This document shows positions 24,664-35,584 of a stretch of DNA of 64,000 nt, piece after piece. The DNA lies in assembly GCF_028294535.1 (NCBI RefSeq), contig NZ_JAQBIE010000002.1:62001-126000 (forward strand), given 5' to 3'. The stretch comes from Paracoccus onchidii. GTDB taxonomy: Bacteria; Pseudomonadota; Alphaproteobacteria; Rhodobacterales; Rhodobacteraceae. A model generated the notes under the pieces. It was given only the letters and a program-made list of their open reading frames with translations, did no database searches and was not told the origin of the DNA. The stretch's first letter is position 1, and each line of letters begins with the position of its first letter. The position numbers and the translations under genes are program-made.

Positions 24664-26067
24664 CTAGCGTGCTTCGTTCACGATACGGATCTGCGTGAAT
24701 TCGGCCAGGCCTTCCTCGGCAAATTCGACGCCCAATCCAGATTGTTTCGCGCCGCCAAAGGGTATGTTCGGCCCGAACTCGAGATGTTTGTTAATCCAGA
24801 CAGTGCCGCTTTCCATGCGTTCGGCGACGGCGCGGGTCATATCGCGATCGCTGCCCCAGACGGAACCGCCCAGTCCCAGCTCCAGCCCGTTCGCGCTGGC
24901 CAGGGCAGCCTCGACATCCTCGAACCGGATCACCGGCAGAATCGGACCGAATTGTTCCTCATCAACAATCTGATCGCCATCCTTCACATCGGCCACGATG
25001 GTCGGGTGAATGAAGTATCCCGGGCCTTCGCCGACCTCGCCTCCGGCCAGAACACGACCATCCTGACGGGCGCGATCCAGAAACCCCTTTACCTTGTCGA
25101 ACTGCATCTTGTTTTGCAGCGGCCCGATCGTCGTGCCCTGCTGCAACCCGTCCCCCACCACGGCTTCACGCGCCATGACAGCCAGGCGATCGCAAACCTC
25201 TTCGTAAATGGAATCATGTACATATGCGCGCTTGATCGCCAGACAGACCTGTCCGGCATTCATGAATGCCCCGGCAAACAGTCCCGGCGCCACCTTTTCT
25301 GGATCAGCGCCCGGCAACACGATCGCGGCATCGTTTCCGCCAAGCTCCAGCGTGAGACGCTTGATGGTCGAAGCCGCGCTGGCCATGATCTTTTGTCCGG
25401 TTGCCGTCGAACCGGTAAACGAGATCTTGGCAATGTCGGGATGCGCGGTCAGCAAGGCCCCCAGATCGTTCTGATCCGTAATGACATTCACCACGCCAGC
25501 CGGCAGCAATTCAGCCATGATCGCACCAAGGCGCAGCGTGGTCAGCGGTGTCGTGGGCGACGGTTTGACAACGATTGTGTTGCCCGCCAGCAATGCAAGC
25601 GGCAGCTTGAATGCCACGATCAACAACGGGAAATTCCAGGGGATAATCGCGCCGACAACCCCCAGAGGCTTGCGGAACTGCTGCACAAGACGGGCGTCAT
25701 TGTCTTCGATCACCTTCACCGGCAAATCGTAACTGGCCAGATGGCGTATAAAGGCGCAGGTATAGGCGATCTCGGCCGTCGATTCCGCCAATGGCTTGCC
25801 TTGTTCCTGCGTCAGCAAGCGGGCAAAAGCCTCGGACTCGGCCTCCAGCCGGTCAGCGATTTGCAGGATCAAGGTGCGACGATCGCTGATCGCCATTGCT
25901 GCCCATGCCGGAAACGCCGCCTTTGCCGCCGCCACCGCCTGATTCAGCTGTGCGGCCGAGGCGCGCGGCGCCTGGGCCAGAACCTCTTCGGTTGCCGGGT
26001 TCACGACATCCATGCTGTCGTCGCCGGAAACAAGCTGACCATCGATCAGCAATTTGTATTCGGTCAT
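24664..26067 (-). CDS. aldehyde dehydrogenase, likely partner of the amine dehydrogenase pathway
   Basis: The 467-aa protein is a typical NAD(P)-dependent aldehyde dehydrogenase: IPWNFPLLI, FTGSTATGQ, general base Glu241 (TLELGGND) and nucleophile Cys275 (NAGQVCLA). It is divergent from qhpR across a 314-base region. That region holds an 18-bp element nearly identical to one upstream of qhpA. Amine dehydrogenase turns primary amines into aldehydes in the periplasm. Oxidation of the aldehyde to the acid in the cytoplasm would be the next step, so co-regulation makes sense. The substrate range is inferred, not shown. Confidence 0.87.
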   Translation of the reverse strand: MTEYKLLIDGQLVSGDDSMDVVNPATEEVLAQAPRASAAQLNQAVAAAKAAFPAWAAMAISDRRTLILQIADRLEAESEAFARLLTQEQGKPLAESTAEIAYTCAFIRHLASYDLPVKVIEDNDARLVQQFRKPLGVVGAIIPWNFPLLIVAFKLPLALLAGNTIVVKPSPTTPLTTLRLGAIMAELLPAGVVNVITDQNDLGALLTAHPDIAKISFTGSTATGQKIMASAASTIKRLTLELGGNDAAIVLPGADPEKVAPGLFAGAFMNAGQVCLAIKRAYVHDSIYEEVCDRLAVMAREAVVGDGLQQGTTIGPLQNKMQFDKVKGFLDRARQDGRVLAGGEVGEGPGYFIHPTIVADVKDGDQIVDEEQFGPILPVIRFEDVEAALASANGLELGLGGSVWGSDRDMTRAVAERMESGTVWINKHLEFGPNIPFGGAKQSGLGVEFAEEGLAEFTQIRIVNEAR

Positions 26068-26381: not shown

Positions 26382-27377
26382 ATGCAGCAGTCATGGATTC
26401 GCGGAGCCGTCGTTTCAATGTTGCTGGGGTCGGACGGAGGTTCGGTCACGGCCAACGCGGCAACGCCCGCGTCCAGCGGAATACCGCTGGAAAGTTTCGT
26501 ATCCATTCTGGAACGCAACCGTGCGTCGACATCCGACGGGGCATCGTCATGGCGTTCCGGTGAACAGATCCGCTTGCGCGACATCGGAATTGCCGGTGAT
26601 GCCGTCAAGGCACGCAAATGCCTTGGGGATGCGTTGCGCGTTTTTTCGCGTGGATTTCCGACGGTACAGTCCAATACCTGCGTGTCAGTCGATGTCATCG
26701 CTGACGAGGTTCATGTTTCCTATCGCGTGCTGGACCCGCGTATCTGGCCGCGTCGCGCCGATGCCGAATTGAGCCTTGGTCTGATCCACGGCATTTGCGC
26801 ACGCTATGGCGTGACGAAAGATGCCTTTATCGACCTCAGCTTTGAACATGAAGCAGATCGCGCCATGCGGTCATTGGCGCGACATCTGGGCCTGACGCCT
26901 CGCTTTGGGGCCGAAACGAACCGCATCATCCTGCCTGCAAGCGTGCTGTGGAACACCCGCCGCGACCCCAACGCCGATGATGACGTGGCCGCCTATGGCA
27001 AGCGGCTGGATGCGGCGCTGCACGAACTCAGGAATGCCACCCCGGTTTCCCAACGCGTCTGTGAACTTATCCTGGCCGGCATGGATCGAGGCATGGTCAA
27101 TCAGGCTGCGGTGGCCAGTGAAATGGGGATGTCCGAACGTTCCCTGCGCCGTGCACTTGCACATGAAGACCAGCCCTTCCACGATTTGCTTGCCGAATGC
27201 CGCCGCAGTGTCGGGCTTGCACAGCTGGTGCGCACCGACCGCCTGTTCAGCGAGATCGCCCTAGCATTGGGATATTCCGATCAAACGGCCTTTTCACGGG
27301 CGTTTTCGCGCTGGTACGGCGCATCCCCGCGCGAACTGCGCAGGATCGGCACCGAGGCGGTCAGGGTAATGACCTGA
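26382..27377 (+). CDS. qhpR: AraC-family regulator of the amine dehydrogenase cluster
   Basis: The 331-aa protein has an N-terminal AraC-type ligand-sensing region of about 220 residues and a C-terminal double helix-turn-helix (NQAAVASEMGMSERSLRRAL, then IALALGYSDQTAFSRAF and SPRELR). In Paracoccus denitrificans the corresponding qhp-linked AraC protein activates the cluster in response to n-butylamine; the same role is expected here. The gene converges on qhpF, and the coding regions overlap tail to tail by 97 bases. The overlap covers the end of the second helix-turn-helix and is therefore not dispensable sequence in qhpR. Confidence 0.85.
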   Translation: MQQSWIRGAVVSMLLGSDGGSVTANAATPASSGIPLESFVSILERNRASTSDGASSWRSGEQIRLRDIGIAGDAVKARKCLGDALRVFSRGFPTVQSNTCVSVDVIADEVHVSYRVLDPRIWPRRADAELSLGLIHGICARYGVTKDAFIDLSFEHEADRAMRSLARHLGLTPRFGAETNRIILPASVLWNTRRDPNADDDVAAYGKRLDAALHELRNATPVSQRVCELILAGMDRGMVNQAAVASEMGMSERSLRRALAHEDQPFHDLLAECRRSVGLAQLVRTDRLFSEIALALGYSDQTAFSRAFSRWYGASPRELRRIGTEAVRVMT

Positions 27378-29008
27378 TCGAAGTCCAAGTCCCGCACAGG
27401 CCCGCTGTGAGCAATGAAAATAAATACCGCAGTCGCGCGGTGACGCTCAAGCGCGGCCAGAATGCGCAGGCAAGCCTGATCGTCGATCTCGGAAAATGCT
27501 TCATCAAAGATCAGCACATCGGCAGGACGCAGCAATGCCCGCGCGATTGCAACGCGCTGGCGCAGGCCACCCGACAGATTGGCCGCCGTTTCCGCCAGGG
27601 CCGTTTCAAGCCCATCTTCGTGATGCGCCCAATCCGCCAGATCAGCCATTTGCAACACCTGCCACATCCGATCATCGTCAGCGTCCGGATCGGCAAGCAA
27701 CAAGTTGTTGCGCAGACTGCCCCGCAGCAAGGCCGATCGCTGCGCCAGATGTGTGATCCGTCCCGTCAATGCCGATGGCCGTATGGCGCCGATATCCAGC
27801 CCGTTCAGCATTACCGCACCCTGGGCCAAATGGGCATCGCCCGTCAGGGTCGCCATCAAACGTGATTTTCCGACGCCGGACGGACCATCCAGCAGCACCA
27901 GATCGCCCGGTCTGATCGTCGCCGTCACCCCGGTGTTCAGACCTTGCATGGCCCTTGCGTTGCGCAACTCGATCTTCAGGTGTTCGCCAGGCAGATCCCG
28001 GCCTTCATCCGGGCGCGTCGCTTGCATCACCCCATCAAGCCGCTGTGCCGCGACCTTGGCGCGGGCCTGCGCATGATACAATCCAAGCAGGTTGCGCAAG
28101 GGTCCGGACATCATCCCGGCATAGGCCAGAAACGCCACCAAGGTGCCGATCTGCCAGTTGCCGGTGATCACTTGCCAGCCGCCGATCAGCAGGATTGCAC
28201 CCCGCATGATGGCCGTGATCGTCTGGCTGACGGCGGATACGGTTTCGGACCAAAGCCGCTGTTGCATCAAGGCCCCGACCTGCCCGATCTGGGTTTGCGC
28301 AAATTGATCGCGGCTTTGACTCAGGGCCCCAAGACCGCGCAATGTCGATCGCGATGCAACGGTTTCAGCCATTTGCGAGGACAACCCCCCACGCCACTGA
28401 CGCACCGCTTGCGCCAATCGCGTCGTGCGCGGCCGCGCGCGACTAAGAAACCACAGCTCGAACGGCGCGGCCAACAAGGGCAGCATTGCCATGCGCCAAT
28501 CCAGCGCGATCATCAGGCCAAGCCCGCCGATCAGGCGAAACACCGCCCCCACGGCCACAAGCACGGTATCAAACGCGAAACTCTGGATTTCGGCGCAATC
28601 CCCATCAAGCCGCGCCATGGCCTCGCCCAATGGCAGGTCCGGCAATGCCGGATCCCGCATCAGGGTCGCGCCGAAAAGCCGGCCGCGCAGATCGACCAGC
28701 ATGCGTGCCGAAACACGCAGATGCAGCATCGCATTGACCATGCCAAGGCCAACAGCCCCCAACCCGAGGGCAAATGACAATCCCGACCACAGGATCAGGG
28801 CGGACATATCCCCCGCCATGATACCGGCATTGATCACCTGACGCGTCAGCATCGGCAAGGCAAGGCCAAAGCTGGCAGCGGCAAGCGAAAACCCCAACAC
28901 GGTCATCGCGCCCGGCAAAGCCTTGCGCATCACGGGTGACAGCCATCGCGCCGTTTCCGCGCCAAACAGCAATCGCGCGACGCGAAATGTGATACCCTCT
29001 TCACCCAT
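27281..29008 (-). CDS. qhpF: ABC exporter (fused membrane and ATPase domains) of the amine dehydrogenase cluster
   Basis: The 575-aa protein has an N-terminal six-helix membrane domain to about residue 310. The nucleotide-binding domain follows, with Walker A GPSGVGKS (about 375-382), signature NLSGGLRQR, Walker B VLIFDEAFSE and switch His IAHSG. Single-chain exporters of this type form homodimers. In the known pathway QhpF moves the crosslinked gamma subunit, which has no Sec signal, to the periplasm. The ATG at 29008 overlaps the qhpE stop; a TTG two codons upstream is less likely. The last 32 codons, beyond the catalytic core, overlap the qhpR gene on the other strand. Confidence 0.88.
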   Translation of the reverse strand: MGEEGITFRVARLLFGAETARWLSPVMRKALPGAMTVLGFSLAAASFGLALPMLTRQVINAGIMAGDMSALILWSGLSFALGLGAVGLGMVNAMLHLRVSARMLVDLRGRLFGATLMRDPALPDLPLGEAMARLDGDCAEIQSFAFDTVLVAVGAVFRLIGGLGLMIALDWRMAMLPLLAAPFELWFLSRARPRTTRLAQAVRQWRGGLSSQMAETVASRSTLRGLGALSQSRDQFAQTQIGQVGALMQQRLWSETVSAVSQTITAIMRGAILLIGGWQVITGNWQIGTLVAFLAYAGMMSGPLRNLLGLYHAQARAKVAAQRLDGVMQATRPDEGRDLPGEHLKIELRNARAMQGLNTGVTATIRPGDLVLLDGPSGVGKSRLMATLTGDAHLAQGAVMLNGLDIGAIRPSALTGRITHLAQRSALLRGSLRNNLLLADPDADDDRMWQVLQMADLADWAHHEDGLETALAETAANLSGGLRQRVAIARALLRPADVLIFDEAFSEIDDQACLRILAALERHRATAVFIFIAHSGPVRDLDFDQVITLTASVPILRSSRGDAPYQRENAREKAV

Positions 29009-29684
29009 GTGCAAGCTTGCGGCGTTCAGGGCCCAGGATCAGGCAGCGATCGGCCAGTGCGCGAAACGCCTGCACCGGTGCCAAGGTCCCCTGCCGCGCC
29101 ATCATGACCGCCAAATGACCGACGATCCGGGCCGCTCCGATACTTGCCCCCCCCATGCCGACCTGCCCATGTTCAGGCGAATTGCACCACGCACCTATGA
29201 CGTCAGGTCGTGGCATTGAAAGATCATCCCAGCCGCATCTTGCATCCCCCGTGGCGGCCAGAACCCGGGGATACGCTGCCGGAAAGCAGGCCTCTCCCTG
29301 CGCCGGATGCGCGGCGACCAGAACCATGCCATTGGCCGTCAGACGCGCGCAGGCCTCTCGCAGGACAGCGCGGTCGGCCCGAAGACCAAGGCTCAGACAG
29401 ACCAGATGGGGGCGATCAGCTTCCGGCAATCCTTGCAACCAATCCAATGCTGCGGCAACGCGCAACGCGCTGGTCACGGGACGTTCATCGAAAACCTGCG
29501 CATGACGGATCTGCACCGGGGGGCAGGCGCGTCGTATGATGCCCGCGACGGCAGTGCCGTGCCCCAACCGATCGGGTGTGACCGTGGTCTGGCATCCATC
29601 CGGCCCAAACGCCACATGACCATGCCCATCATTGGCATGGTCCGTCAACGGGCCGCCGCTGTCGATGACGCCGACCCTGATCAT
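29001..29684 (-). CDS. qhpE: subtilisin-like serine protease for gamma-subunit leader removal
   Basis: The 227-aa protein is a minimal S8 peptidase with Asp8 (VIDSG), His42 (GHGTAVAG) and Ser181 (GGASIGAA) as the triad. It has no signal or propeptide, so it acts in the cytoplasm. In P. denitrificans the homolog cuts the 28-residue leader from the crosslinked QhpC. The segment where subtilisins carry the oxyanion-hole asparagine reads VAAHPAQG here, with no Asn. The start MIRVGVIDSG one base after the qhpB stop is chosen because the longer reading adds 53 basic residues from the opposite context. Confidence 0.87.
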   Translation of the reverse strand: MIRVGVIDSGGPLTDHANDGHGHVAFGPDGCQTTVTPDRLGHGTAVAGIIRRACPPVQIRHAQVFDERPVTSALRVAAALDWLQGLPEADRPHLVCLSLGLRADRAVLREACARLTANGMVLVAAHPAQGEACFPAAYPRVLAATGDARCGWDDLSMPRPDVIGAWCNSPEHGQVGMGGASIGAARIVGHLAVMMARQGTLAPVQAFRALADRCLILGPERRKLAHG

Positions 29685-29685
29685 T

Positions 29686-30762
29686 TCAGTCCCCGCGCGA
29701 GAACAGGCGCACGCTGGCCAGTGACATCGAGGCATTGCCCGGCAGGTCGACCTGTCCCTTCTTTTCCAGCGTCTCGGAATCATAGGCCGCCAAATCACCA
29801 AGCGCGCCGCCCAGCCAGACCGTGTCGCCATCGGTCGAGACATTCACGGAATAGTAGCTGTGGGGCAGCGGCACCCGCTTGATCGACTTGTCTTCCTGAA
29901 GGTCGAAGCTTTCCAGCACATTATAGGCCCCGAAGGCACGGGTCTTGTCAGGGCTGACCGCGGTCGAGAAGTAGAACACATCCATGATGCGCACCTCTCG
30001 CATGTCCATCTCTCCGCTATCCAGATCCATGGTCAACATCCCGGTGCGATAGGCTTCCGGATCGGCAGGGTCCTTGGCTGTCAGGGCAGTATAGAACGGC
30101 ACGGACAACACGTCCGAGCTTTCATGCTGGCTCCAGACCGCCAGAACATCCGGCTGGGAATAGGTTTCGGGCTGCCAGCTTTGTATCGGCAGATCTTCGA
30201 TCAGTTCTCCGCTCACGGCATCCATGACATGCATGCTGCGGCCCAGGCCATAGATACGGGTGCCGTCGGTGGAATAGGCGAGAATGGTGATCTGCCGCGG
30301 CGCCTCGAAACTGGATTTCCGTTCCATGGTTTCGGTGTCGTAAAGCGCGATCCGGGTTGGCTGAACCTCGAAATGGGTCAGCTCCATCTTGACCGGGCTT
30401 TCATAGACGGCCAGCGTCCCGCCATCAGGCGACAGGGCGAAGCCGAACAGAGATTTCACCCGCTCGCCATCGCTGCTGAGATCGACGCGGGCGACGGCTT
30501 CGCCGCTGTCCAGATCGATCTTGACGAAGCTTTCCGTCTTGTTGACCGTCGAATAGGCAAATTTTCCATCCGGCGCGACGATGGGCACCATCGGTGTCGG
30601 ACCGGCATCCTGAACCGTGATCGTATTGACGACCTTCATTTCCTCGGCATCGACAACGATCAGCTTGTCGGGGCGCGCGGGGGCCAGAATGAAATCCTTG
30701 GCCAGAACCGGCGATGCCAGAAACGCGGCGGACGCCAGAAGGGGCAGAAACGACATGCGCAT
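29686..30762 (-). CDS. qhpB: quinohemoprotein amine dehydrogenase beta subunit (beta-propeller)
   Basis: The 358-aa protein has a Sec signal ending SPVLAKDF near residue 21, then repeated YVTN/WD-like blades (APARPDKLIVVDAEEM, FAYSTVNKTES, FALSPDGGTLAVY, VNVSTDGDTVWLGG) that form a seven-bladed propeller. It supports part of the active site next to the gamma subunit in the periplasm. The start at MRMSFLPLL follows AAAGG and lies four bases after the qhpC stop. The longer frame upstream would overlap qhpC. It carries no heme motif. Confidence 0.9.
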   Translation of the reverse strand: MRMSFLPLLASAAFLASPVLAKDFILAPARPDKLIVVDAEEMKVVNTITVQDAGPTPMVPIVAPDGKFAYSTVNKTESFVKIDLDSGEAVARVDLSSDGERVKSLFGFALSPDGGTLAVYESPVKMELTHFEVQPTRIALYDTETMERKSSFEAPRQITILAYSTDGTRIYGLGRSMHVMDAVSGELIEDLPIQSWQPETYSQPDVLAVWSQHESSDVLSVPFYTALTAKDPADPEAYRTGMLTMDLDSGEMDMREVRIMDVFYFSTAVSPDKTRAFGAYNVLESFDLQEDKSIKRVPLPHSYYSVNVSTDGDTVWLGGALGDLAAYDSETLEKKGQVDLPGNASMSLASVRLFSRGD

Positions 30763-30766
30763 CGGG

Positions 30767-31093
30767 TCAGCCTTTCTTTTCGGGGAAGACGGATTGCAGC
30801 TTGCGCCAGTCCTGCATGACATCATCGGCGCCCGCGCTCCAATCCGGATAGGTGTTCAACGTATCTGCGACCTGCGCCGGCCACCAGCAGGGGTCTGCAC
30901 AGCCATACAGATCGGCCTCCATCGGCTGACACAGATTCGAAACCGCACCGAACGCATCCACTTCCCAACCGGGATCGAAGGATGTGGTGCAGCCAACCAG
31001 AGAGTTCATCGCGACGACTTCGTCCTCGCGGCCTTCGGCCTCGGCTTCGACAAAGGCCTTGGCCTTGGCATTTGCGGGGGTCAGATGTTTCAT
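30767..31093 (-). CDS. qhpC: quinohemoprotein amine dehydrogenase gamma subunit (CTQ peptide precursor)
   Basis: The 108-aa precursor has all residues that are crosslinked in the P. denitrificans gamma subunit. If the mature chain begins after residue 28, Cys7-Glu16, Cys27-Asp33 and Cys41-Asp49 thioether pairs map to C35-E44, C55-D61 and C69-D77. The CTQ pair Cys37-Trp43 maps to C65-W71. Each spacing agrees exactly. CTQ is the quinone cofactor that oxidises primary amines. The 28-residue leader is charged and lacks a Sec signal, as expected for a substrate of QhpD, QhpG, QhpE and then QhpF. It overlaps qhpD by four bases. Confidence 0.95.
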
Positions 31094-32550
31094 TGTGGAA
31101 GAACCTCCTTGGCGGGGCCGGAGCGCGTGATCCGGGGTTCAAGCTGGCTACGGAAGAAATCGGGATTGGCGCGCATGATGCGGACATAGGATTCGATGCC
31201 GAAATCCACCCAGTCTCGCATCAGGTCGCAATAGTGATAGACAGGCGCAAAGGCGTCGCCCTGCCGGGAATAGCTTTCGTGATAGCAACCGCCCGCACAG
31301 ATCGAACGGATGCGGCAGGTTTTGCAGCCATATTCGCTGCGATCCTGGGCCTTTTCGATGAACGCGGCCAGCTTCGGGACATCGATTCCCTTGTCGACAT
31401 TCCCATAGGTCGGTTCATTCGAGCCGACGAACCGGTGACACAGATGCAGGTCGCCTTCCAGATCGACGGCCAGCATCCCCAACCCCGCACCGCAAGGCAC
31501 CTGTTTCTTGGTGCCCTGAGCGATATCGGTCAGCAATTGGTGCATGTTCGAGAAGCCGATATTCTCGCCACGGCACGCTGCCTCGACATAGCGCTGGCCA
31601 AGGGCCTTCATGTCGTCGAACACATGTTTCAGCCCGGCTTCGTCCAGATTGAACACCGCGATCGGACCTGAAGTCGCGGGACCGAACCCGACCTCGGCAA
31701 AGCCCAGATCGTTCTTCAGGTGGTCATGGATGCCGATCACATCGGTGACGCCGCGCGTCAGGGTCACACGCACGCCGACCGGACGGGCCGTATAGCGCGA
31801 CAGCAGCATCCGCACCTTGCGCGACACCAGATCATAGGTACCCTTGCCACCGACGGTCTTGCGATTGATGTCATGCAGGGCCTTGGGCCCATCCATCGAG
31901 ACGGTCAGCGCGAAACGATGCGCATTGAACCAATCGACCATCTCTTCGGTCAGCAAGGTCGCGTTGGTGGTCAACGAGAAATCGACCGTCTTGCCCATTT
32001 CGCGGGCGCGCGGCACAGCGTATTCGACGACCTCGCGGATCAGGGGCATGTTCGACAGCGGCTCTCCGCCAAAGAACACCACATTGACGCGATCCCGATC
32101 GACCGCCTGTTTCAGCAGCAACTCGAACGAGGCGCGCGCCGTGTCAAAGGCCATCTTCTGACCCTTGGCAGGCGTGGTCAGATCCTCTTTGTAGCAATAG
32201 GTGCAGGCCAGATTGCAGCCCGTATTGACGTTGAGGATGATGGTCGACAGCGGGATTTCCTCGACCTTGACGATCGGCCGTGGAATATCGGCGGCTTCGG
32301 CATCGCGCAGGATATCCAGCGCCATGAAGCTTTGCAGGCAATCGCCCAGATCATCCGGGCTGTGGCGGTCGCCAAGCCGGGCCTTCATCGTCCCGGCATC
32401 GACCGCCGGGGTGGTGCGAAACAGTTCATAGACGTCCTGTGCGACCGCATCCAGTTCGAACAGGCTGGTCGTCGGCGGATGCATCAGCATCGCATAGCCA
32501 TCGATATCGACGCGATGCGCATTGTGGCGGACAAGGGTCAAGGCAGACAT
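31090..32550 (-). CDS. qhpD: radical SAM/SPASM thioether-forming maturase QhpD
   Basis: The 486-aa protein has the radical SAM cluster motif [11 protein letters not shown] (Cys112, 116, 119) and the GGEPL motif. The C-terminal SPASM-type cysteine set runs from [12 protein letters not shown] through [14 protein letters not shown] to YHYC. In P. denitrificans QhpD forms the three Cys-to-Asp/Glu carbon thioether bonds in the gamma peptide while bound to it and to the protease QhpE. The N-terminal about 95 residues may form a peptide-recognition domain. The gene sits between qhpA and qhpC and overlaps qhpC (ATGA). Confidence 0.95.
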
Positions 32551-32559
32551 GACGGAACC

Positions 32560-34110
32560 TCAGCGGATTGGCGCATCGACAAAGCGCTGCACGGTTGCAT
32601 ATAGATGCGCCTCGGCGGTCAGCGGCGTGTCACCGGCTTCGACCGTAGCGATCACTTTCAGGTTGCCCGCATTGTTGGTCATCATCGGGCGTTCGGGGTT
32701 CGGGCCTGCATCTGCGGGCACGAACAGGCCGGTTTCATCGATCTGGCCGGCGAATTTCGCATCCTCCATCGCGGCGGCGGCCTCGTCGAAATTGTCGACG
32801 GCCCATTGTGCGTCGAATGCACCCAGGGCGATGTCGTCTTCGGTCGCGGCCTGACCGTCGGGGCCGTTCAACCAGCCCATCGCCTCGAACTGGGCCGGAG
32901 CCTTTGGGATCGGACCGCCGCCGCCACCGATACGGGCCATGGCCATTTCGGGGACGATGGTGATGCGGTCAGGTTGGTCATAGGCGACCAGATCCACCTG
33001 CTGTTTCCCTACCAGTAGGGAAAACGGTCCGGGCGCCGTCTGGGCCTGGACAGACAGCACCATCACACCTGAATCGGAACTCTCTGTTGTTGCCGTGACA
33101 CCTTCAGGCAAGGTCAGGTCATCGCCCAGCCCGACACCTGCGACACGGATTTTAGTTTCTTCGCCAATCCGCACGCGCCGGGGCGTGGCCGCGATCACCT
33201 GTGTCGCACCATCTTCGGGCAGGGCCGCAATGCGTCCACCGATCATGTCGCGATCGGTTTCGTACCAGCGCCCTGAAATCGCACCGTCCTCGGCAATTGC
33301 AAATACCTGCCGGATCGAGGTCGTGCCGTCAGTCAATGTCGCGCGCCACTCGCCCGCGCCGAGTATCCGCCCCGTGCCTTCAAAGGTCTGGCTGCCATCG
33401 GCAAAATCAAGCGTCATGGTCACGGCGTAATCGCCATCTGCTGCCTGAAGTCGCAGCATGCCGGTGTAATCACCCCGCCCCGGCTGTCGGCCTGCCAGCA
33501 CATAATCGCCGGACGCATCGCCGGAAAACGCCGCAGGCGCTTCGCCGAGCGGATAGGTCTTGGCAAGGAACGGAATGATCTCGGCCTTGGCGATGCCCCA
33601 CCAGTCGCGATCACGCGCCAACGCCTGATATTCCAGCGTCGGGAACTGCCCCAGGTGGAAATTGATCAGATGTTCCCAATCCTGCGGGCTGCGCCGTTGC
33701 AGCGCGACGCGCGCATAGGAATGGCAGCGCCCGCATGTCTGCGTCATCAGATCATCCGGACCCGCATCAAAGGCCACCGGCTCGCGTTCAAGGATATAGC
33801 GCCGGTCGGACGTTTCCTCGAGGGTCAGGCCGCGCGTATCCGCCAGATGGCGAACGATTGCCAGACGCTCGTCATCTTCAAGATAGACGTCATGATTGCG
33901 GATCATCCGCGTGACCGTCATGTCCCAACCTTCCGGGGTCTTGCGCACGGCGCTGATACGCTCGTAGCCGCCATCCTCCGTCGCGGCATGGCAAGCGGCA
34001 CAGGTATTTTCCAGCACCTCTTCGCCGGTCACCGCGAAGGCGGGCAAGGCAAGGGACAGCGCGCCAAATGCGCAGCTTGTTACCAAGGCTGATCGGATAA
34101 GTGGCTTCAT
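32560..34110 (-). CDS. qhpA: quinohemoprotein amine dehydrogenase alpha subunit (diheme cytochrome c)
   Basis: The 516-aa protein begins with a Sec signal ending ALPAFAV near residue 27 and has two heme c motifs, CAACH (37-41) and CGRCH (126-130). Three beta-rich domains that pack against the propeller follow. It takes electrons from the CTQ of the gamma subunit and passes them to a soluble periplasmic carrier such as cytochrome c550 or azurin. No carrier gene is present here. It is the first gene of the qhpADCBEF transcript. The putative QhpR site lies 138 bases upstream. Confidence 0.93.
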   Translation of the reverse strand: MKPLIRSALVTSCAFGALSLALPAFAVTGEEVLENTCAACHAATEDGGYERISAVRKTPEGWDMTVTRMIRNHDVYLEDDERLAIVRHLADTRGLTLEETSDRRYILEREPVAFDAGPDDLMTQTCGRCHSYARVALQRRSPQDWEHLINFHLGQFPTLEYQALARDRDWWGIAKAEIIPFLAKTYPLGEAPAAFSGDASGDYVLAGRQPGRGDYTGMLRLQAADGDYAVTMTLDFADGSQTFEGTGRILGAGEWRATLTDGTTSIRQVFAIAEDGAISGRWYETDRDMIGGRIAALPEDGATQVIAATPRRVRIGEETKIRVAGVGLGDDLTLPEGVTATTESSDSGVMVLSVQAQTAPGPFSLLVGKQQVDLVAYDQPDRITIVPEMAMARIGGGGGPIPKAPAQFEAMGWLNGPDGQAATEDDIALGAFDAQWAVDNFDEAAAAMEDAKFAGQIDETGLFVPADAGPNPERPMMTNNAGNLKVIATVEAGDTPLTAEAHLYATVQRFVDAPIR

Positions 34111-34247
34111 CTTGCTGCTTCCTCTGGCTCGGCTGAGGATCCGGGACGGGCCGGATCCGAATTGATATTTTTCAGCAAAGCGCCGCAGGCCGGGGCATAC
34201 TTGTCATTCCCGGCCACAGTCGCGGCAGATTGACGCGCAACAAGGTT

Positions 34248-34265
34248 TTGGCCGCTTTTGTCAAG
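34248..34265 (-). promoter_or_regulatory. candidate QhpR operator upstream of qhpA
   Basis: On the minus strand the sequence reads CTTGACAAAAGCGGCCAA, pointing toward qhpA. It is identical at 16 of 18 positions to CTTGCCAAATGCGGCCAA upstream of qhpR and the aldehyde dehydrogenase. It lies in the 211-base divergent region between qhpA and qhpG. Shared, long and intergenic, it is the best operator candidate in the window. Confidence 0.7.
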
Positions 34266-34321
34266 TTGACTGCACGCGGATAAGGCGATCCTGCCACAAG
34301 GCTGAACAATCGCGGAATACA

Positions 34322-35584
34322 ATGGCAGACGCGTTCGATCTGATTGTCCTGGGAGGAGGACCGGCAGGGGCCGTTTCCGCCTGGCTGGCCGCGCGCGATG
34401 GCCTGCGGGTTGCACTCATCGATCCTTGCTGCACCGCGGCCCGCCTCGAAGGGCTAAGTCCGCGACTGCATCACTGGTTGGGCAAACAAGGGCTGTTGAA
34501 AGGCTTTGATGGCATCTTTGGCCCGCTGCGCAGGCGCGTCGACTGGGCGGGAATCAGCGATACCAACAGCGAATATGTCGTCGAACGCGACAAGTTGGAT
34601 GCGCATTTGCGCGCAGCTGCACGCCGGGCCGGTGCCCAACTGCGGCACGGCAGCGGCACACCCGTTGACGGCGGAGCGATCCTGTCATCCGGGCATCACC
34701 TGCAAGCACCAATGGTGATCGACGCCCGGGGGCGCAAATCGGGACATCACAGCAGTATTCGTGCCGCCGCCACCCTGGCCATTTGCGGCTGGATGGCCGG
34801 CGCCGAAATTGACGCCGGCATATCCATCACCGCCATTTCAACAGGATGGGTCTGGCGCGTTGCCTTGCCCGATGGGCGCATCTGGGTGCAGGCAATCATG
34901 GATGCCACTGGTCACGGCAGCCCGGCCATGCGGCTGCATGATGCCCTGTCCCGCGCCGAACCCAGCCTGACCAGCGCCAGGCCAGTCGGCCAGGTCAATG
35001 TGCGGGCCGCGCAACCACGCCTGCCCGCTCCATTGCGGGATCTGACCGTGCTGCCGGTCGGTGATGCGCTTGCGGCCATGGATCCCTTGTCGGGCCACGG
35101 ACAGTTCTGGGCGGTTTCCAGCGCGCTTGCTGTCGCGGCCGTGCGCCGCAGCCTGGCCGCCTGCCCCGGTCAGGACACAAACGCCATGTCGCTGCAATTC
35201 CTGAACACTCGCGCCGTGGGCACCAGCCTGCATCAGGCGCGCGTGGGCCGTGATTTCCTGCGGCTGGAGCAGCGGTTTTCCAAACATCCCTTCTGGCAGA
35301 GACGGACCGGATTTCCAGATAATGAAACCAGCATCGCCGCGCCCGAGGAAATCACGGTCGGTCAGTCGATCGTTGTCGAAAACGGTCAACTGGCGCGCCG
35401 GGACATCCTGTTGACCCCGCGTTCGCCCGACGGGGTCGCGTGGTTTGGACCGGTGCCTGCGGTCGAGGCATGGCAGATACATCAGACCGATGGCCTTCGC
35501 GGCCTGCAGCAGCGTTGGGGCCAATGGGATCAACACATCCAAAAGGCCCTGCTCCTCGAGGAAACCCCTGCGTTTTCGTCATGA
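34322..35584 (+). CDS. qhpG: FAD-dependent tryptophan monooxygenase for CTQ formation
   Basis: The 420-aa protein has the FAD-binding start IVLGGGPAGAVSAWLAAR, a YVVERDKLDAHLR segment and a GDALAAMDPLSGHG motif of the tryptophan-halogenase/PHBH-like flavin monooxygenases. In the P. denitrificans pathway QhpG adds both oxygens to the gamma-subunit tryptophan, making the quinone of CTQ. It is transcribed away from qhpA, with the shared operator-like element between them. It ends 27 bases before the convergent arylsulfatase gene. There is no signal peptide, in line with action on QhpC before export. Confidence 0.87.
   Translation: MADAFDLIVLGGGPAGAVSAWLAARDGLRVALIDPCCTAARLEGLSPRLHHWLGKQGLLKGFDGIFGPLRRRVDWAGISDTNSEYVVERDKLDAHLRAAARRAGAQLRHGSGTPVDGGAILSSGHHLQAPMVIDARGRKSGHHSSIRAAATLAICGWMAGAEIDAGISITAISTGWVWRVALPDGRIWVQAIMDATGHGSPAMRLHDALSRAEPSLTSARPVGQVNVRAAQPRLPAPLRDLTVLPVGDALAAMDPLSGHGQFWAVSSALAVAAVRRSLAACPGQDTNAMSLQFLNTRAVGTSLHQARVGRDFLRLEQRFSKHPFWQRRTGFPDNETSIAAPEEITVGQSIVVENGQLARRDILLTPRSPDGVAWFGPVPAVEAWQIHQTDGLRGLQQRWGQWDQHIQKALLLEETPAFSS

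Follow-up and report, generated by a model that had tools for sequence, protein, structure and literature searches.

The window analyzed here, a 64,000-nucleotide stretch of Paracoccus onchidii DNA (contig NZ_JAQBIE010000002.1, positions 62,001 to 126,000), carries eight genes, qhpR, F, E, B, C, D, A and G, whose frames are all open within positions 26382-35584. Judged by their sequences, these genes almost certainly make up a complete cluster predicted for quinohemoprotein amine dehydrogenase (QHNDH), in which QhpD and the O2-dependent QhpG would form the cysteine tryptophylquinone (CTQ) cofactor within QhpC. The locus is already known and ordinary, one more very close member of a well-studied enzyme system. 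It served as the yardstick for comparing qhp relatives, among which we found loci with two adjacent proteins, a U32 family member and a partner, that likely take over the oxygen step of QhpG and allow CTQ to form in the absence of O2.

The qhp cluster of the window

Seven of the eight Qhp proteins, QhpD, QhpG and QhpC among them, scored above the curated NCBIfam cut-off of their own Qhp family, the exception being QhpF. The gamma subunit precursor QhpC (108 aa; 30767-31093, minus strand) reached 165.4 bits with NF037958 (cut-off 50), matched PF08992 and gave 178.9 bits with chain C of 1jju, which we take to be the P. denitrificans enzyme. The entire mature chain 1jju_C aligns with QhpC residues 29-107, with differences at 3 of 79 positions, and its start at query residue 29 leaves a leader of 28 residues (31010-31093, minus strand), the length given for QhpC in PMC7876137. 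Cys7, Cys27, Cys37, Cys41, Glu16, Asp33, Asp49 and Trp43 of the mature chain are identical in 121/121 QhpC rows (the window plus the 120 loci described below, two of them repeats); Cys37 (codon 30899-30901, minus strand) is the CTQ partner and Trp43 (codon 30881-30883, minus strand) the CTQ precursor. A longer frame overlapping qhpC (30822-31187) was taken as spurious, and QhpC is single-copy in the complete 4.08 Mb genome.

The thioether-forming radical SAM/SPASM maturase QhpD (31090-32550, minus strand; TIGR03906, 777.4 bits, cut-off 453) has CX3CX2C at residue 112, and the flavin adenine dinucleotide (FAD) tryptophan dihydroxylase QhpG (34322-35584, plus strand; NF049967, 397.6 bits, cut-off 240) scored 126 bits against 7ctq, a peptidyl tryptophan dihydroxylase. 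The di-haem alpha subunit QhpA (32560-34110, minus strand; TIGR03908, 600.5 bits, cut-off 274.35; 1jju_A, 839.6 bits) contains two CXXCH motifs, CAACH at residue 37 and CGRCH at 126, and is accompanied by the beta propeller of the beta subunit QhpB (29686-30762, minus strand; TIGR03907, 370.9 bits, cut-off 223.2; 1jju_B, 580.9 bits). The subtilisin-like leader protease QhpE (29001-29684, minus strand; NF049966, 227.4 bits, cut-off 165) shows D-S-G at residues 8-10, HGT at 42-44 and GAS at 179-181. QhpF (27281-29008, minus strand, ATG at 29008) was named from its position and its 70% identity to the P. denitrificans gene; with ABC_membrane and ABC_tran domains, Walker A GPSGVGKS at residue 375 and LSGG at 478, it is predicted to be the ATP-binding cassette exporter of processed QhpC to the periplasm. 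The AraC-type regulator QhpR (26382-27377, plus strand; NF049968, 356.5 bits, cut-off 250) combines Arabinose_bd and HTH_18 domains.

The original prediction of these eight genes at these positions is thus borne out, for QhpF by Pfam domains, position and identity, but the genes are not one single-strand series. The run qhpADCBEF is tight (successive gaps of +9, -4, +4, +1 and -8 bp), while qhpG is divergent from qhpA with 211 bp between them, and qhpR is convergent with qhpF, their tails sharing 97 bp (27281-27377). Where qhpR and qhpF are opposed, their tails overlap by 85-112 bp in 23 of 25 loci, so that the two coding ends are tied to each other across the strands; the exceptions are L037, where frames are broken up, and L068, where qhpR and qhpF are not neighbors.

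As had also been claimed, the layout is that of P. denitrificans: in strain DSM 413 (L011) all eight genes, their order and their relative strands agree with the window. Identities to L011, taken from the best tblastn segment, are 96% for QhpC, 85% for QhpD, 75% for QhpB, 73% for QhpA, 70% for QhpF, 65% for QhpE, 62% for QhpR and 58% for QhpG, and from the P. denitrificans QHNDH of known structure (PDB 1jju/1pby) the window differs by sequence divergence only. Pseudomonas QHNDH (1jmx; QhpG structure 7ctq from Ps. putida) has the same subunits and maturases and, in the alignment with QhpC, identical CTQ residues, but identity is lower, and the Pseudomonas loci closest to the window (L031, L035, L036) are ordered differently. 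On a tree of QhpD the window groups with Paracoccus, and the qhp system was found in 0 of 24 genomes from other families of the class. In Paracoccus cavernae two qhp copies (L033, L037) lie about 0.3 Mb apart with frames broken up in both, perhaps through sequencing errors. A record titled Enemella evansiae (Actinomycetota; L040) holds a qhp cluster that the QhpD tree places with Roseobacteraceae, reflecting either contamination or recent transfer.

The steps of QHNDH maturation in the window can be proposed from characterized homologues (PMC7876137). QhpD would put three Cys-Asp/Glu thioethers into QhpC while QhpC is held by its leader, and QhpG with reduced FAD would place two oxygens, for which O2 is the proposed source, onto Trp43. 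QhpE would then cut off the 28-residue leader and QhpF would export the product; CTQ would be completed in the periplasm on assembly with QhpA and QhpB, the final oxidation being thought to occur there with QhpA. In response to amines, QhpR would switch the qhp genes on. According to PMC7876137 the electron donor of QhpG is unknown; no ferredoxin or flavodoxin was present among the window genes scanned. QHNDH is catabolic and not the housekeeping enzyme of the original prediction; the same source describes it as induced by amines and counts it in more than 1300 bacterial species with variable gene arrangement, so the description as a rare case does not hold either.

Beyond qhpR lies an aldehyde dehydrogenase gene (24664-26067, minus strand; Aldedh, 504 bits) that is common to the window and P. 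denitrificans L011 (84% identical) and whose product likely oxidizes the aldehyde formed. At the other end, 27 bp separate qhpG from a convergent gene for a large sulfatase-family protein (PF00884; 35612-38020). Scanning the window for Rfam families and tRNAs gave no matches.

Some observations weigh against a complete and working qhp cluster. QhpF reached no cut-off among the 25 NCBIfam rows listed of 167, residues 1-34 of QhpR fall outside the NF049968 model so that its start codon is uncertain, and QhpG, the least conserved of the proteins, is 58% identical to its P. denitrificans counterpart and only 28-29% to those of Pseudomonas L031, L035 and L036. The system is also patchy in the sampled genus (8 of 37 genomes, the window's included) and so has probably been gained and lost often, as would suit a decayed or silent copy. 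Such a copy is nevertheless very improbable here, and was ruled out by family scores and intact frames: none of the eight genes is interrupted, motif residues are kept, the genes overlap or nearly touch, and identity to P. denitrificans is 58-96%. The 50 bits that QhpG scored with each of the maturases GoxB and LodB, a weak similarity far below the cut-offs of 400, would fit another protein-quinone enzyme, either the tryptophan tryptophylquinone enzyme methylamine dehydrogenase (MADH) or a CTQ oxidase of the LodA/GoxA type. The chance of this is close to nil, since all three subunits hit QHNDH equivalogs and chains of 1jju, with no MADH or LodA model among their matches; the family scores refute it.

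A U32 protein and its partner in divergent qhp loci

A scan of a genome collection gave 216 confirmed QhpC relatives, the best 80 of which were taken as named loci. Six of these 80 had a QhpD sharing less than 50% identity with that of the window, and a custom profile found QhpG in none of them. They come from Aromatoleum toluvorans (L079), A. toluolicum (L087) and metagenome-assembled genomes (MAGs) of Acetobacteraceae (L041), Sterolibacterium (L059), Telmatospirillum (L084) and Nitrosomonadales (L074, where the contig ends after qhpB). In all five whose contigs continue, two conserved genes, here X1 and X2, follow qhpE. X2 is a U32 protein (PF01136, UbiU-like) whose only NCBIfam matches, UbiU and TrhP, were both below cut-off; its partner X1 had no family match. 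Among the named database rows listed, those for X2 read 'U32 family peptidase' or similar, those for X1 either 'hypothetical protein' or 'conserved protein of unknown function'.

Searching 249 genomes of the A. toluvorans family for QhpC allowed 40 of 41 further QhpC places to be added, giving 120 loci. Within the stretch scanned, 76 had QhpG only, 19 X1 and X2 only, 7 both and 18 neither; once two repeats (L067/L150, L080/L155) are removed, the 118 distinct loci divide into 75, 19, 6 and 18. A lone QhpG, L109, stands outside the 120, and counting it would bring the QhpG-only group to 77. Among the 95 loci with complete qhpA to qhpF, 69 had QhpG, 18 the pair, 5 both and 3 neither. X1 and X2 always occur together (26/26 loci), and in 16 of the 18 loci where qhpE and X1 are neighbors on one strand, the stop of qhpE and the start of X1 overlap as ATGA, as expected for translational coupling of the two genes. 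Pair-only loci lie at three separate places on the QhpD tree, which has 120 rows and was built by a quick method, with 29 open forks and the long branches of L041 and L084 meeting.

The 18 loci with neither module had the appearance of a third kind of locus, which was dropped after checks of contig ends and genomes, with L069 and L083 left unexplained. Ten are truncated where their contig stops (L016, L044, L045, L049, L056, L075, L081, L089, L169, L178). For five more (L148, L168, L172, L174, L175) the pair lies elsewhere in the genome, 13-31 kb off or on another contig, and for L074, where the search was for X1 only, the partner X1 does so likewise. The same five form one branch, in which the qhp genes have as neighbors a response regulator and a frame some 1900 residues long; that of L172 (13504-19901) has Ser/Thr kinase, AAA, GAF, PAS and histidine kinase domains. 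A qhpR-type gene was not seen in the stretches scanned of these five loci.

X2 differs from the known U32 proteins. It scored 128-141 bits with PF01136 in 3/3 tested and is 26% identical to E. coli UbiU, but reached only 75-93 of 440 bits with the UbiU model (3/3 tested) and hence is not a UbiU. It shares the U32 domain with RNA hydroxylases of the TrhP/RlhA type, whose substrate is RNA; the TrhP model gave 58-78 bits and its cut-off of 534 was not reached. The likeness to UbiU-UbiV extends to the arrangement as two adjacent proteins, one of them U32. UbiU and UbiV form a heterodimer with one 4Fe-4S cluster each (PMC6747719), and studies of U32 proteins, namely UbiU-UbiV and RNA modifiers, link them to O2-independent hydroxylation (PMC6747719, PMC11574389), with prephenate implicated as donor for U32 oxidases (PMC11574389). 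In X1, C58, C210, C229 and C233 are invariant in the 66 aligned sequences of 76 found, giving CXnCX18CX3C against CXnCX12CX3C in UbiV (PMC6747719). An alignment of 48 X2 sequences, selected among 120 listed out of 460 found, shows nine invariant Cys, compared with four Cys in UbiU, and CX6C is common to both (PMC6747719). An hhalign comparison of X1 with X2 gave a probability of 85.8 (E 5.4e-6). Against 19 UbiV sequences X1 gave 1.9, a comparison of little power since X2 also reached only 2.1, with unrelated controls at 0.1-0.7.

Co-occurrence of the pair, QhpG and QhpC

QhpC was found in 38 of the 249 family genomes. The X1 and X2 profiles each hit the same 24 genomes, all among these 38 and none among the 211 without QhpC (Fisher p = 6e-24, uncorrected for shared ancestry). 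In the other 14 QhpC genomes QhpG was always present (5 by the NCBIfam model, 9 by the custom profile with at least 300 bits at the locus), so that QhpG or the pair occurs in 38/38. Among the 24 pair genomes, 7 also have QhpG and 16 have none over the cut-off (G310 stands outside this QhpG count); in one pair genome, G164, the best QhpG score was 179 of 240 bits. Across 398 genomes of the phylum, X1 was found in the centre genome only, the other six of the seven QhpC genomes being without it; misses are possible in these X1 searches, as scoring was limited to a few top first-look candidates in each genome (up to 9 in the family, 5 in the phylum). X1 is absent in the window's genome, in seven further QhpC genomes of the genus and in P. 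denitrificans.

Of the 19 genomes with a pair-only locus, 14 had no QhpG over the cut-off and 5 had one (G066, G113, G169, G235, G281); MAG contigs can hide genes. The QhpG-like gene of G066 is L109 itself (contig C237, 8563-10182; 549 bits), which has no qhp gene within 8 kb in either direction and is flanked on one side by an RND/outer-membrane efflux pair and on the other by a 1967-residue frame with RTX repeats.

G169 is Aromatoleum aromaticum EbN1, with 12 kb at 100% identity to plasmid NC_006823.1. Of its two qhp loci, L160 lacks QhpG and carries the pair immediately behind qhpE, and L159 has both QhpG and the pair, the latter divergent from qhpA. A 2019 paper by Schmitt et al. reportedly, by its title, assigns to QHNDHs the first step of anaerobic amine breakdown in A. 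aromaticum EbN1, and its abstract is reported to state that CTQ maturation does not need O2.

A separate UbiV is present in all 19 pair-only-locus genomes, indicating that the pair is an extra, dedicated copy and not the UbiUV of those genomes. UbiV was also considered as a marker of oxygen-free life, but it did not separate the two kinds of locus, being present in 10 of 11 QhpG-only genomes outside the window's genus as well, and in 0 of 3 within the genus. These three are the window's genome and two others; P. denitrificans has one UbiV.

Proposed role of the pair

Since the crosslink and CTQ residues are kept in both kinds of locus (121/121 rows), two oxygens should be needed in both, and since the known U32 relatives act in O2-independent hydroxylation, the pair likely supplies them without O2. 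We therefore think it probable, from comparative sequence evidence, that there are two interchangeable routes to CTQ, an aerobic one through QhpG and an oxygen-free one in which an iron-sulfur pair would hydroxylate Trp43 of QhpC twice with an organic donor such as prephenate. We propose the names QhpU for the U32 member (X2) and QhpV for its four-Cys partner (X1). Loci with both modules would switch between them with oxygen supply, like the two ubiquinone hydroxylation systems. Among open-licence papers, no publication was found that links U32 proteins or prephenate to tryptophylquinone or quinohemoprotein amine dehydrogenase.

The pair might instead serve some purpose unrelated to Trp hydroxylation, such as proteolysis or a transport-related step, with QhpD or an unlinked flavoprotein adding the oxygen; we regard this as rather unlikely, yet a number of observations speak for it or limit the case for an oxygen-free route through the pair. 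U32 proteins are annotated as peptidases, X1 is unrecognized by the UbiV profile, and U32 oxidases still await direct proof of catalysis (PMC11574389). Flavoproteins weakly matching the QhpG model occur in all nine genomes of the test set and in 14 controls. QhpG and the pair are present together in six distinct loci, and the occurrence of QhpG elsewhere in 5 of the 19 pair-only genomes weakens strict replacement. In addition, L069 (Pseudomonas jinjuensis) and L083 (Neptuniibacter) have qhpA, D, C and B with no qhpE, F, G or pair within about 20 kb. On the other side, QhpE and QhpF are kept in 18/19 pair-only loci, so the protease and transport jobs are already taken; every one of the 38 QhpC genomes has QhpG or the pair; and work on U32 proteins has so far linked them to O2-independent hydroxylation (PMC6747719, PMC11574389).

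If the pair does hydroxylate Trp43, no earlier U32 hydroxylase would have had a protein side chain as its substrate, and the range of the U32 oxidases, so far quinones and RNA, would come to include proteins. With QhpG proposed to use O2 (PMC7876137), QhpU and QhpV would offer a concrete gene-level answer to how two oxygens arrive without it. This would also explain the presence of a tryptophylquinone enzyme in nitrate-respiring Aromatoleum, Thauera and their relatives.

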